NCBI RefSeq assembly: GCF_039831995.1
Contig: NZ_JBDOIO010000005.1
Location: 372,001-436,000 of the forward strand
Source of the DNA: Paenibacillus pabuli
GTDB lineage: Bacteria > Bacillota > Bacilli > Paenibacillales > Paenibacillaceae
DNA: 64,000 bases
Direction of reading: 5' to 3'
The number at the start of each line of letters is the position of its first letter. Position 1 is the stretch's first letter. This document shows, in pieces, positions 37,873 through 54,761 of this stretch. The notes beneath the pieces were generated by a model. That model had not been told where the DNA came from. It did not search any database and saw only the letters and a list, made by a program, of their open reading frames with translations. The position numbers and the translations under genes are program-made.

Positions 37873-37994
37873 TCGTTTTAACGCCAAAGACCGAGGATGA
37901 ATAATTCCAGTTCATGGTATGCTGTGTGTAACGAGAAAAAGACTTCATGTCTGTTCGGAACGATGCTAATGAAACGATGAAAAGGAGAGATATC

Positions 37995-38495
37995 ATGGCT
38001 AAACGTACGATCCTGGCGCCTGTGCTCATTTTGCTGGGCGTGTACCTGATTCTGAACCAGGGAGGTTCACTCGGTCCGGGTACGATCTTTGCCAACTTCT
38101 GGCCCACACTATTCGTGATCCCACTCGGCCTGTTCTTCCACTGGCTGTACTTCTCCATGATTGGCAGAGGGGTTGGCTTGCTTGTACCGGGTGGTATTTT
38201 GCTGACTGCGGGCGTGATTAGCCAGATCGCCATGCTCTTTGGTAACTGGAGCACCATGTGGCCTGGCTTTATTCTCGCGGTCGCTGTAGGTTTATTTGAA
38301 TTGTACTGGTTCGGTGGACGAAACAAGTGGCTGCTCATCCCCATTAACATCCTGACAGTGATCTCGCTGCTGTTCTTCACGGTTATGTCCATCGGTTCGA
38401 TGCTGAACAGCATGTCCTTCATTCAGCCGTTTGTGGCAATTGTGCTGATTATGGGCGGGGCATGGTTAATTGTGGGTCGCAAAAGAAACATGTAG
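37995..38495 (+). CDS. multi-pass membrane protein, LiaF/LiaI-like transmembrane type
   Basis: A 166-residue protein starting at ATG 37995 with AAAAGGAG 8 nt upstream. Five to six membrane segments fill it, ending in WLIVGRKRNM. The pattern (LAPVLILLGVYLILNQGGSLGPGTIFANFWPTLFVIPLGLFF) is that of the membrane half of LiaF-type or related small-domain proteins of Firmicute envelope-stress systems. No cytosolic or extracellular domain remains. Function unknown. The perfect palindrome at 37853 may regulate it. Confidence 0.75.
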   Translation: MAKRTILAPVLILLGVYLILNQGGSLGPGTIFANFWPTLFVIPLGLFFHWLYFSMIGRGVGLLVPGGILLTAGVISQIAMLFGNWSTMWPGFILAVAVGLFELYWFGGRNKWLLIPINILTVISLLFFTVMSIGSMLNSMSFIQPFVAIVLIMGGAWLIVGRKRNM

Positions 38496-38524
38496 GCCAA
38501 ATATCGTTTACACTAAACCACTCC

Positions 38525-38676
38525 GAGGACAGACAACTTCCGATCGCTGTTATTCCCGGATTTCCTTGATTCCCCCCTTGACAGGGAGAAATCCGGGAAT
38601 AGCTTATGCTTCCGAAGTAGCTTTCTTTCAGAAAGCTTTTAGGCGCACGCTTCGCTTCTACAGTTTGTCTGTCCTC
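38525..38676. repeat. structured palindromic element, copy A
   Basis: 152 bp in the convergent gap between the membrane protein and potD. Outer 12-bp perfect stem GAGGACAGACAA (38525-38536) with TTGTCTGTCCTC (38665-38676). Inside: conserved CGATCGCTGTTAT (38541-38553), which runs into a perfect 13-bp stem (38551-38563 with 38589-38601) capped by a smaller CCCT/AGGG hairpin, a bulge holding CTTGAT, an extra 8-bp hairpin (38619-38637), and the conserved block ACGCTTCGCTTCTACAG (38647-38663). Copy B at 52378-52489 keeps the unpaired blocks but has different, still complementary, stems. Orientation and function unknown. Confidence 0.8.
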
Positions 38677-38751
38677 TCCGTTCCGTGTGATCCTAAAGTT
38701 CATCTTATATACCAATGCAAGTACATTTTGCTCTAAAGGTAAGGATAAGAG

Positions 38752-51454: not shown

Positions 51455-52276
51455 CTACCCCTTCGGATTTAAAGTTTTGGCCATTTTGTTCATGACACCG
51501 ACCACGACAAACGTAATGACAATCATAATCGCGGCAACGACCGAGGCCAGATACCAGTCGTTGAGGGTCATGGCGTTTTGATACAGGAACGTGGCGATAA
51601 CGCGCTGCTTGCCTCCAAGAAGCGCAGGTGTCGTATACGCCGTAAGGCTTCCGACAAAAACAAGCACGGCTCCGATGACAAGCCCTGGCACAGCCAGTGG
51701 GAATACGACCCGGCGGAATGCCGTAATACGGGAAGCTCCCAGACTTTGTGCCGCTTTGAGCAGATCATTGTCGATGTTCTCAAGCACACCGACCAGAGAA
51801 ATGATCATGAGTGGCAGGAACAGGTGAGTCAGACCGATCATCATGGCTGCCGGTGTGTACAGGATATCCAGCGGCTTGTCCACGATCCCCAGGCCAACCA
51901 GTGCATTATTGATCAGACCTTTGCGTCCAAGAATGATCATCCAGCTAAACGAGCGCACAACCGGGCTTGTCAGCAATGGGAAAATGGCCAGTGCCAGCAG
52001 GATTCCTTTGCGGCGCGGCGCTTTCTGCGAAATATAATAAGCTGTCGGGAATCCGAGCACCACACAGACAAGGGTGGTGACCACGCTGACCTGCAGCGTC
52101 GTAAGCAATATTTTCAAAAAGTAAGGGTCTCTGAAAAAATGCATGTATCCTTCAAACGTGAAGGAGTTTTCCTGGAAAAACGTTGATCCGATCGTCAGGA
52201 CAATCGGAATGATCATAAATGCCGCCAAAAACACGAACCCTGGCAGCAATAGCCAGTAGATTACTGATTTCTTCAT
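51455..52276 (-). CDS. ABC transporter permease, PotB-like
   Basis: A 273-residue permease with six membrane segments; EAA loop LLKAAQSLGASRITAFRRVVFPLAVPGL. First gene after the structured element B; the preceding gene is the nucleoside hydrolase. Partner of the PotC-like permease 6 nt downstream. Confidence 0.9.
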   Translation of the reverse strand: MKKSVIYWLLLPGFVFLAAFMIIPIVLTIGSTFFQENSFTFEGYMHFFRDPYFLKILLTTLQVSVVTTLVCVVLGFPTAYYISQKAPRRKGILLALAIFPLLTSPVVRSFSWMIILGRKGLINNALVGLGIVDKPLDILYTPAAMMIGLTHLFLPLMIISLVGVLENIDNDLLKAAQSLGASRITAFRRVVFPLAVPGLVIGAVLVFVGSLTAYTTPALLGGKQRVIATFLYQNAMTLNDWYLASVVAAIMIVITFVVVGVMNKMAKTLNPKG

Positions 52277-52377
52277 CGCGGTACTCCTGACTTATAAAGT
52301 GGTTGTATTCCTACGTTCCATTTAGTCACATTTCAAAAATATAGTACTCTACGTTAATCGCACCAGCCGTTCCGGTT

Positions 52378-52489
52378 ACGAATCGTTCTTTCGATCGCTG
52401 TTATCCTTGGATTTTCTTGATCTCCTTCTTATAGAAGGAAAAATCCAAGGATAAAGGCGAACGCTTCGCTTCTACAGAATCGATTTCGT
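52378..52489. repeat. structured palindromic element, copy B
   Basis: 112 bp in the 283-nt gap between permease and nucleoside hydrolase genes. Shares CGATCGCTGTTAT (52392-52404), bulge CTTGAT (52416-52421) and ACGCTTCGCTTCTACAG (52461-52477) with copy A. Its main stem (52401-52415 with 52440-52454) is a perfect 15 bp but differs from copy A (CCTTGG/CCAAGG here, CCCGG/CCGGG there). An apical 7-bp TCCTTCT/AGAAGGA hairpin caps it. The outer stem ACGAA-TCG-TTCT with AGAA-CGA-TTCGT has two single-base bulges. Within a presumed operon it could be an internal regulatory or processing site. Confidence 0.8.
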
Positions 52490-52559
52490 CCCCTCCACTA
52501 GCAGCGAAATACGTAAGGACTGATTTTTAGACTGAACCCAAATTCCGTAAAGATCATAG

Positions 52560-53498
52560 CTACGCATTTAACGCGCCTATAAAAAGTTCAAGGAACGCTT
52601 CCGCGTCCACCGTTTCACAGACAAGCGTGTTGGGCTGCTGGCCCAAACGGTTTTGAAAGTCACATACCATCTGGCCATCGCACAGGCGGCTGGCCGTTTC
52701 GACATCCACGTAATACGATTTGCGTCCTACCAGTTCCGGTGCAAGGGCAACGCCTACTGCCAGCGGATCATGCAAAGCGCAAGCCCGGATGCCGTTCATT
52801 TCCTCATAACGCTTGATATAAATCTCTGTGCTCTGAGCTACATAAGCACGCAATACGGGATCGGTCAATCGGCTGATCGCTTCTTCATTAAGCAGCGTCT
52901 GACGCGTGACATCCAGACCGACCTGCGTAAGCTTCTCAATGCCGGCATGCATTACGATGCGTGCCGCCTCGGGGTCAGCGTACGTATTGTACTCTGCCGT
53001 CGGTGTGATATTGCCATGTCCACGTACAACCCCACCCATGAAGATGACTTCCTTCAATAAAGAAGGCAGTTCTGGACACTTCAGCAAAGCAAGTGCCAGA
53101 TTTGTTAATGGCGCAGTCTTAATCAGCGTAAGTTCACCCGGATACAGCTTGGCTTGCTCCACAATAAAGTCCGGCGCAAAGCCCTCATCCGCTTGCTTGG
53201 ACACTGCCGGATCAGGCAGCGCACCACCTAATCCATCCTGTCCATGTACCCGATGTTCATAATGTGATTTGCGGGTGAGCGGACCAGCCGCTCCGGCAAT
53301 CACCGGAATTTCAGACGCATCTGCCAGTTCCAGAATCTTGCATGTATTATCCGTTGCCTGCTGGAGCGATACGTTCCCGCAGACCGTGGTAATGCCGAGA
53401 ATGTCCAGCTTCTGGCTCTTGACGGCCAGCAAAATGGCCAGCGCATCATCAATACCCGTGTCCACATCCAGGATGATGCGTTGTAACGCCTTAATCAT
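52560..53498 (-). CDS. inosine-uridine preferring nucleoside hydrolase
   Basis: A 312-residue nucleoside hydrolase. The calcium and catalytic motif DVDTGIDDA (Asp11, Asp13, Asp17, Asp18), the LIKTAPLTNLALAL loop, GGVVRGHGNITPTAEYNTYADPEAA and the late Asp in ALHDPLAVGVAL are all intact, so it should cleave ribonucleosides to base and ribose. It lies between the solute-binding gene and the permeases of a transporter operon, suggesting it acts on the imported nucleoside. Confidence 0.93.
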   Translation of the reverse strand: MIKALQRIILDVDTGIDDALAILLAVKSQKLDILGITTVCGNVSLQQATDNTCKILELADASEIPVIAGAAGPLTRKSHYEHRVHGQDGLGGALPDPAVSKQADEGFAPDFIVEQAKLYPGELTLIKTAPLTNLALALLKCPELPSLLKEVIFMGGVVRGHGNITPTAEYNTYADPEAARIVMHAGIEKLTQVGLDVTRQTLLNEEAISRLTDPVLRAYVAQSTEIYIKRYEEMNGIRACALHDPLAVGVALAPELVGRKSYYVDVETASRLCDGQMVCDFQNRLGQQPNTLVCETVDAEAFLELFIGALNA

Positions 53499-54673: not shown

Positions 54674-54708
54674 GATCCTGAATTCCTCCTGAAATGTGTG
54701 ATGTGTAC

Positions 54709-54761
54709 TAAAAAAAAAACAAAAAGAAAAGCATTCTTGTAAGAACAAGAACACTTTTCTT
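54709..54761 (-). terminator. strong terminator in the leader of the solute-binding operon
   Basis: AAGAAAAG-TTCTTG pairs with CAAGAA-CTTTTCTT (54724-54761); on the minus strand a run of T broken by one G follows. The run ends about 36 nt before the binding-protein ATG, too short for a downstream promoter, so transcription of the operon must either pass it or start inside it. It may also end the DUF2294 transcript. Confidence 0.75.

Follow-up and report, generated by a model that had tools for sequence, protein, structure and literature searches.

Two loci in a 64,000-nt stretch of the Paenibacillus pabuli contig NZ_JBDOIO010000005.1 (the window) are members of what is very probably a dispersed, at least formerly mobile repeat family. 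With moderate confidence, we take this family to consist of non-autonomous, apparently mobile palindromic elements of the Paenibacillaceae that resemble MITEs, ERIC and bcr1; on the best reading, they are often found after a stop codon and ahead of a ribosome-binding site. The family is apparently undescribed and would be a new, Paenibacillaceae-wide representative of the MITE/ERIC/bcr class, with the unusual features of a strand-specific GNA architecture, arms that vary in step, a conserved site at which the subtype can differ and, possibly, an ability to insert into palindromes. The two copies, their parts and the neighbouring genes are as follows, with the strand given where one is assigned.

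37947..38495, plus strand: open frame before copy 1, membrane protein gene (by eye)
38508..38691, minus strand (presumed folding strand; plus in the earlier note): copy 1, covariance model R1, 69.8 bits
38529..38536: copy 1 outer arm ACAGACAA, pairs with 38665-38672 (sequence, fold)
38551..38601: copy 1 main hairpin, arms 38551-38564 and 38588-38601 (sequence, folds)
38602..38640: copy 1 insert module, ~38 bases (alignment A1; presence or absence at the same sites)
38649..38663, minus strand: copy 1 conserved block GCTTCGCTTCTACAG, read as CTGTAGAA-GCGAAGC on the minus strand
38665..38672: copy 1 outer arm TTGTCTGT, pairs with 38529-38536 (sequence, fold)
51455..52276, minus strand: open frame downstream of copy 2, ABC-transporter permease gene (function by eye)
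52357..52509, minus strand: copy 2, subtype II-like, covariance model R1, 130.3 bits
52401..52454: copy 2 main hairpin, arms 52401-52415 and 52440-52454
52463..52477, minus strand: copy 2 conserved block, GC-GAA-GC mini-hairpin on the minus strand
52560..53498, minus strand: open frame upstream of copy 2, nucleoside hydrolase-like gene (function by eye)

An earlier note on this DNA had matched 38525-38676 with 52378-52489 as two like copies of one element. The two are homologous and extend further than was given, yet they belong to different subtypes: copy 1 is of subtype I and carries an additional module of ~38 bases, which forms a hairpin of its own with a GAA loop on the minus strand. The shared blocks read in the sequence as had been described, with GATCGCTGTTAT exact at both loci and GCTTCGCTTCTACAG giving two window matches at up to two mismatches against 0.19 expected; when two mismatches were allowed, GATCGCTGTTAT did no better in the window than chance would have it (9 matches against 5.7 expected). 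Both main stems do pair perfectly, TATTCCCGGATTTC/GAAATCCGGGAATA (38551-38564/38588-38601) over 14 bp, a correction of the length reported for copy 1, and TTATCCTTGGATTTT/AAAATCCAAGGATAA (52401-52415/52440-52454) over 15 bp. On the minus strand, the copy 1 block at 38649..38663 supplies one side of a GNA/GNA loop together with the GC-GAA-GC mini-hairpin. Both loci fold far better than shuffled sequences on either strand (z-scores on the originally reported strand of -5.2 and -6.0 as RNA and -6.0 and -6.6 as DNA for copies 1 and 2), and neither contains an open frame of at least 90 amino acids. Comparison of the same sites showed the insert module to be present or absent between related copies; it looks in itself like a small mobile or deletable unit.

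Rather than the pair of loci first proposed, the two copies represent a high-copy, MITE/ERIC-like family. The pattern GATCGCTGTTNT occurs exactly at 43 places in the window's genome (G000, 6.95 Mb) and nowhere when read backwards; 3 of the 43 were judged chance matches without an element and 1 a short form. Covariance model R1, which was built from copies of this genome on the originally reported strand, returned 109 rows there, of which we count 75 as separate copies (69 long and 6 short) and the other 34 as hits to the opposite strand of these. Elements measure about 150-230 bp. One member, G000:C3:3688836-3688982, is odd in that it has a different main stem (CCCCGGTGGC/GCCACCGGG) and, on its two sides, the halves of a separate inverted repeat (CCTCCTACACCTC/GAGGTGTAGGAGG).

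Beyond this genome, R1 matched in all 75 genomes of a Paenibacillus sample, with a minimum of one row and at least 41 rows in 53 of them. The element was present in 162 of 197 genomes and 13 of 19 genera of a Paenibacillaceae sample, and twelve genomes from 10 other genera yielded 5 to 116 rows each, opposite-strand rows included. In a phylum sample of 199 genomes, the four that matched were all Paenibacillaceae, with no match outside that family. Scanning named genomes by pattern gave at least 119 stretches, all from Paenibacillus among the matches listed. Phage records held no match, and two P. cellulosilyticus records of a plasmid collection matched weakly. Thirty stretches of viral-called IMG/VR contigs (L220-L249) carry the pattern and were used in flank comparisons only; several of these elements lie at about the same distance from the contig end, perhaps in the host flanks of prophages.

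For the comparisons below, 69 distinct rows were counted of the 75 from the window's genome; of 160 rows from named loci, 150 entered alignment A3 and 98 distinct rows of at least 120 bases were counted. Alignments A3, A4, A6 and A7 were fitted to R1, and A2 holds 33 insert-free copies from the window's genome.

The compensatory stem changes inferred from the first two copies proved real and general, and stems stayed complementary in the further copies recovered with the covariance model. In A2, two-sided changes affected 23 of 35 pairs, in 110 cells against 33 in shuffles, a signal that was lost when partners were slid; 34 copies from other genera showed them in 31 of 35 pairs (229 cells against 61 shuffled), with 94.2% paired. 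Among 30 orthologues of the copy 1 site the signal was weaker, with 41 double-change cells against 16 in shuffles and eight covarying pairs, a number reached by 17 of 500 shuffles; further pair types at this site were not above shuffles. The outer stems had been described as different in sequence and still complementary, and this is borne out across copies: the 30-base flanks of an element in the window's genome score 8.12 in complementarity to each other against 5.82 when exchanged between copies (a difference inflated by the mixing of subtypes among exchanged flanks), a level reached in 0 of 300 permutations here and in 0 of 300 in each of three other sets. Thirty bases further out, the window's genome and the copy 1 site have lost the complementarity (87 and 42 of 300), the named loci show it slightly (7 of 300), and the other genera retain it (0 of 300). 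Complementarity thus extends, with copy-specific sequence, past the conserved region.

Most of the evidence from consensus fold, conserved motifs and gene direction favours the strand opposite to that originally reported, and we consider it likely that this reverse complement (the gene strand) is the one that folds. RNAalifold gave -29.7 kcal/mol on the gene strand and -14.5 kcal/mol on the other for 33 copies of the window's genome, and -40.4 against -31.6 kcal/mol for the 34 copies of other genera. Counted on the structure of the model, G-U pairs possible on the gene strand alone outnumbered those possible on the reported strand alone in three sets (101, 120 and 28 cells against 27, 30 and 5), also after removal of the commonest columns (two, two and one per set; 50 against 24, 56 against 29 and 17 against 5), and this although the model had been built on the opposite strand. 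Both symmetric internal loops read GNA/GNA on the gene strand; in A2, the T-N-C positions behind them on the other strand show either no variation or conservation of at least 90%. The conserved sequence CGCTTCGCTTCT, seemingly unpaired on the reported strand, becomes a GC-GNA-GC mini-hairpin on the gene strand. This hairpin was found in 133 of 146 elements readable by pattern (21 of 167 being unreadable and excluded, and 39 of 167 in a related count) against 7.9% of shuffles, and, by a looser pattern, in 32 of 34 elements of other genera. Its stem varies in step (GC/GC, AC/GT, AT/AT, GT/AC), with double changes in both of its pairs, though in three cells only. In most copies the insert module, too, presents a GAA, GCA, GGA, GTA or GCAA hairpin loop on the gene strand, as read by eye. 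Three observations run contrary: the RNA z-scores of the window copies are slightly better on the reported strand (-5.2 and -6.0 against -4.5 and -5.2), the free RNAalifold fold of the other genera has more G-U pairs there (5.4% against 3.9%), and the copy 1 orthologues lack the wobble asymmetry (10 against 10).

Folded on the gene strand, the element is a long rod composed of the main hairpin, the GC-GNA-GC mini-hairpin, two GNA/GNA loops and a copy-specific outer stem. Its GC-GAA-GC mini-hairpin is presumably the same as the solved GCGAAGC hairpin, and the GNA/GNA internal loop is, we assume, a known motif. GCGAAGC is listed among solved single-stranded DNA hairpins (1KR8, 1PQT) in a passage of PMC5430850; according to passages of PMC10527192, a 2-bp stem can suffice for a melting temperature of 76.5 degrees in DNA or RNA mini-hairpins.

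The gene strand is also the one on which the neighbouring genes tend to lie. A Shine-Dalgarno-led frame starting 15-120 nt past the gene-strand 3′ end only, as opposed to the other end only, was seen for 37 against 3 copies in the window's genome (65 tested), 29 against 6 in the named loci (1 with both; 77 tested) and 13 against 0 in the other genera (32 tested), so that 79 of 88 informative copies have the start on their gene-strand 3′ side; 25 of 65, 41 of 77 and 19 of 32 copies had such a start on neither side. Distinct long elements entered the test where they were not too near the end of their locus (65 of 69, 77 of 98 and 32 of 34), and the counts are not independent because many copies are orthologous or in tandem. 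Tandem gene contexts scored with a crude ORF caller numbered 47 against 6, 38 against 15 and 19 against 8 in the three sets, counts that are approximate since the caller took an antisense frame at copy 1, where the actual gene is on the plus strand; by this caller, 33 of the 47 copies of the window's genome sit 25-85 nt before a start codon. Orientation agrees likewise with the local GC skew (63 of 75 copies), on account of which transcription and replication are inseparable as its cause. Following genes and GC skew alike, orientation does not decide between RNA and DNA.

Copy 2 is 50 nt from the stop codon of the nucleoside hydrolase-like gene and 80 nt from the start codon of the ABC permease gene. 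Copy 1 lies 12 nt past the stop codon of the plus-strand gene 37947..38495 with a convergent gene beyond, and antisense and 3′-UTR placements occur in the family. The genes downstream of 52 of the 75 copies, identified by eye from their N-termini, include those for enolase, EF-P, PheT, LigA, PcrA, UvrC, ArgJ, ArgB, CarA, FabZ, RimM and PurC as well as transport genes, and show no functional theme; a riboswitch-type regulon was rejected on this ground.

Filled and empty sites at three loci, with flanks 85-97% identical, together with a nested copy and four forms at the copy 2 site, indicate mobility and turnover. At one site, P. taichungensis (L174) is empty where Paenibacillus sp. OK003 and P. 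xylanexedens are filled (flanks ~96% and ~89%), the empty site being, by eye, an 18-nt gap from a stop codon to the next start codon. At a second, P. taichungensis is filled and others are empty (flanks 91-95%), and the empty site resembles a small palindrome. The third, at window positions ~54700-54717, is empty in the window's genome and in P. illinoisensis (L104) and holds a degenerate copy in P. xylanexedens DSM 21292 (L192; flanks 85-90%). Possible target duplications are TTA at one site and TGATCA at another, with nothing clear at the third. At the rlmI site, a subtype I element stands in L186, by eye, in place of the hairpin of a subtype II element, nested within it; the same site has one copy in the window's genome and three in tandem in P. 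xylanexedens DE0301 (L110). Insertion into palindromes is thus possible, on two cases read by eye. Arrays of three elements were noted at L110 1235-1749, L145 2193-2785 and L130 7218-7861, with near-constant spacings of ~182, 222 and 245 bp. Exchange is also seen at C3:3788097, which carries subtype II in the window's genome and subtype I in two other species, and one short form of the window's genome corresponds to a full-length element in L109.

Persistence at both window sites is unlike that of a freely moving element. The copy 1 site is occupied in all 30 genomes fetched, down to 79% identity, with 26 more distant matches outside these 30. At the copy 2 site, an element is present in 40 of the 50 genomes fetched, namely all 40 with an identity of at least 89%; two at 85% have only a remnant-like hairpin, and all eight outgroup genomes fetched, at 76-78% identity, lack it, one of them having 27 nt between the genes by eye. 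A further 15 matching genomes lie outside the 50. The 40 elements fall into forms i (14), ii (5), iii (12) and iv (9), assigned by short patterns with form ii as the remainder class; within i, ii and iv, copies with and without the insert module occur. Form i has a core that diverges less than its flanks (0.048 against 0.219 and 0.211; coding 0.062), as do, less clearly, forms iii (0.045 against 0.143 and 0.070; coding 0.039) and iv (0.076 against 0.083 and 0.110; coding 0.052).

The earlier note had recognised no named family, and no Rfam family fits. Rfam 15 gave no match to the element in the window at gathering thresholds or in 16 loci at lax thresholds; the sole overlap was mir-4716 in L160 (E 0.43; 25.6 bits, the cut-off being 76), and a known Rfam RNA was rejected as no family reached its gathering score. 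The window's only Rfam match at gathering thresholds is a Cobalamin riboswitch (RF00174, 118.9 bits) at 1301-1488 on the minus strand. Identity with an existing REP or MITE family, the alternative named at the outset, holds in kind and not by name. The element is palindromic and extragenic like REP/REPIN sequences and has beside its hairpin a G(T/G/A)AG sequence that may answer to their tag; copies share CTG[T/G/A]AG on the gene strand, but its variable base is the N of a GNA/GNA loop. The core may resemble that of REP. The element is, however, much longer than the RAYT-associated REP/REPIN sequences. Y1_Tnp had no match in the window's genome at E≤0.001 and occurred in 42 of 75 genus genomes, the element being in all 75; R1 (E≤0.01) found nothing within ~1.5 kb on each side of 30 Y1_Tnp loci. 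Mobilisation by RAYT/IS200 as defined was rejected on these grounds, and the search for a mobilising protein, which covered Y1_Tnp, found none.

With MITEs the element shares its non-coding nature (it is too short for a transposase), its insertion polymorphism and perhaps, in part of subtype I, inverted ends (TATATAAGTTGAAC); by a loose test, TATA stands near both ends in 15 of 59 subtype I elements of the window's genome, 25 of 82 of the named loci and 1 of 33 of subtype II. It differs in its outer arms, copy-specific yet complementary, and has no parent transposon in the Y1_Tnp search. ERIC- or bcr1-like structured repeats have in common with it a long stem-loop and an extragenic position beside or between genes. 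ERIC has internal insertion variants, and we know of no GC-GNA-GC mini-hairpin in it. Passages of PMC2267715 portray ERIC/IRU as a long single stem-loop of ~127 bp, intergenic in enterobacteria and vibrios, and said in Yersinia to regulate neighbouring genes via RNA folding; compared by description only, it is likewise a long intergenic stem-loop, found in other bacteria. The bcr1-bcr18 repeats of the Bacillus cereus group, to which the title of the cited work calls bcr repeats specific, are described in passages of PMC3446304 as interspersed, non-coding, partly MITE-like and located in UTRs and intercistronic regions, with 51% and 40% transcribed in two strains and a correlation of bcr3 with mRNA half-life. 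They too are interspersed non-coding repeats of Bacillales, again by description only. Titles and the opening parts of abstracts of non-subscription papers mentioned no such Paenibacillus repeat, which is weak evidence of novelty; the word 'repeat' has 0 occurrences in the available text of a P. riograndensis transcriptome paper (PMC5670726).

On the preferred reading of a mobile, MITE/ERIC/bcr1-like family, an enzyme would recognise the fold of one strand, most simply as single-stranded DNA, and would insert copies into short intergenic gaps and existing palindromes. New insertions would nest in or replace older copies, and where the sense strand carries the rod, after a stop codon and ahead of the following ribosome-binding site, they would be tolerated or kept. 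There, the rod would join the operon mRNA and may serve as a spacer or as a stability or processing structure. Against this reading stand copy 1, which follows the stop codon of a plus-strand gene and precedes no start codon, the search for a mobilising protein, which covered Y1_Tnp and found none, and the unclear target-site duplication.

As to why the fold is kept, no single reason receives from us more than tentative credence, short of an even chance. The earlier note had seen in the covarying stems the mark of selection on an RNA or single-strand structure; the covariation stands, and selection on RNA in particular does not follow from it. On the gene strand, wobbles make up 3.9% of paired cells in both element sets against 12.1% in a control of 21 distinct SAM riboswitches from the same genus that were treated in the same way, and there are more double than single changes in the element (200 against 39) and not in the control (28 against 33). 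Such figures suggest that the pairing is maintained as DNA or through arm-to-arm correction, in addition to RNA selection or in its place; we regard maintenance as DNA as at least as likely as maintenance as RNA.

That the rod is selected as RNA, stabilising, processing or insulating neighbouring mRNAs from a position between cistrons before the ribosome-binding site while mobility merely supplies copies, is a tentative possibility. It would account for the sense-strand orientation in the start-codon test, the short distance to start codons found by the crude caller in most tandem contexts, the retention of the element at orthologous sites and a form i core more than four times less divergent than its flanks, and the transcription of bcr repeats and the bcr3-half-life correlation (in the same passages of PMC3446304) accord with it. 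The lack of a theme among the 52 downstream genes speaks against it, as do the scarcity of wobbles, the four-base loops of the mini-hairpin, of which 3 of 12 fit GNRA, and the cores of forms iii and iv, hardly better conserved than their flanks.

Rather doubtful, as a joint claim, is a structure-coded mobile element, a folded single DNA strand that a non-Y1 enzyme would know by fixed GNA motifs: the GC-GNA-GC mini-hairpin and the two GNA/GNA loops would be recognised rather than a long sequence, the arms would be free to change provided that they remain paired, and insertion would be into palindromes, own older copies included. If this were true, the need for one particular strand would tie orientation to transcription or replication.

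Complementarity might also arise without selection, by arm-to-arm copying through template switching at a quasi-palindrome during replication. The excess of double over single changes, pair swaps with few intermediates, and copy-specific complementarity that reaches the non-conserved flanks, among one-site orthologues too, are what such copying would leave. The mismatches of the GNA/GNA loops are conserved rather than corrected and G and A persist in the loop of the mini-hairpin, however, and we hold this explanation to be unlikely. That the element is a cis-regulatory RNA governing a regulon of its own, be it a riboswitch or a protein-bound leader, is very improbable: despite strong covariation and the short distance to start codons, the downstream genes lack a theme, subtypes differ at the same site, and antisense and 3′-UTR placements exist.

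A repeat that is present in most sampled Paenibacillaceae, absent from Rfam and situated between genes, many housekeeping genes among them, matters for annotation, for operon expression and for the way genomes evolve in a group used in industry and agriculture. Nested and exchanged copies of it suggest a putative mobilising enzyme, and its strand-specific, wobble-poor covariation offers a test case in which RNA selection, selection on single-stranded DNA and correction between arms might be distinguished.
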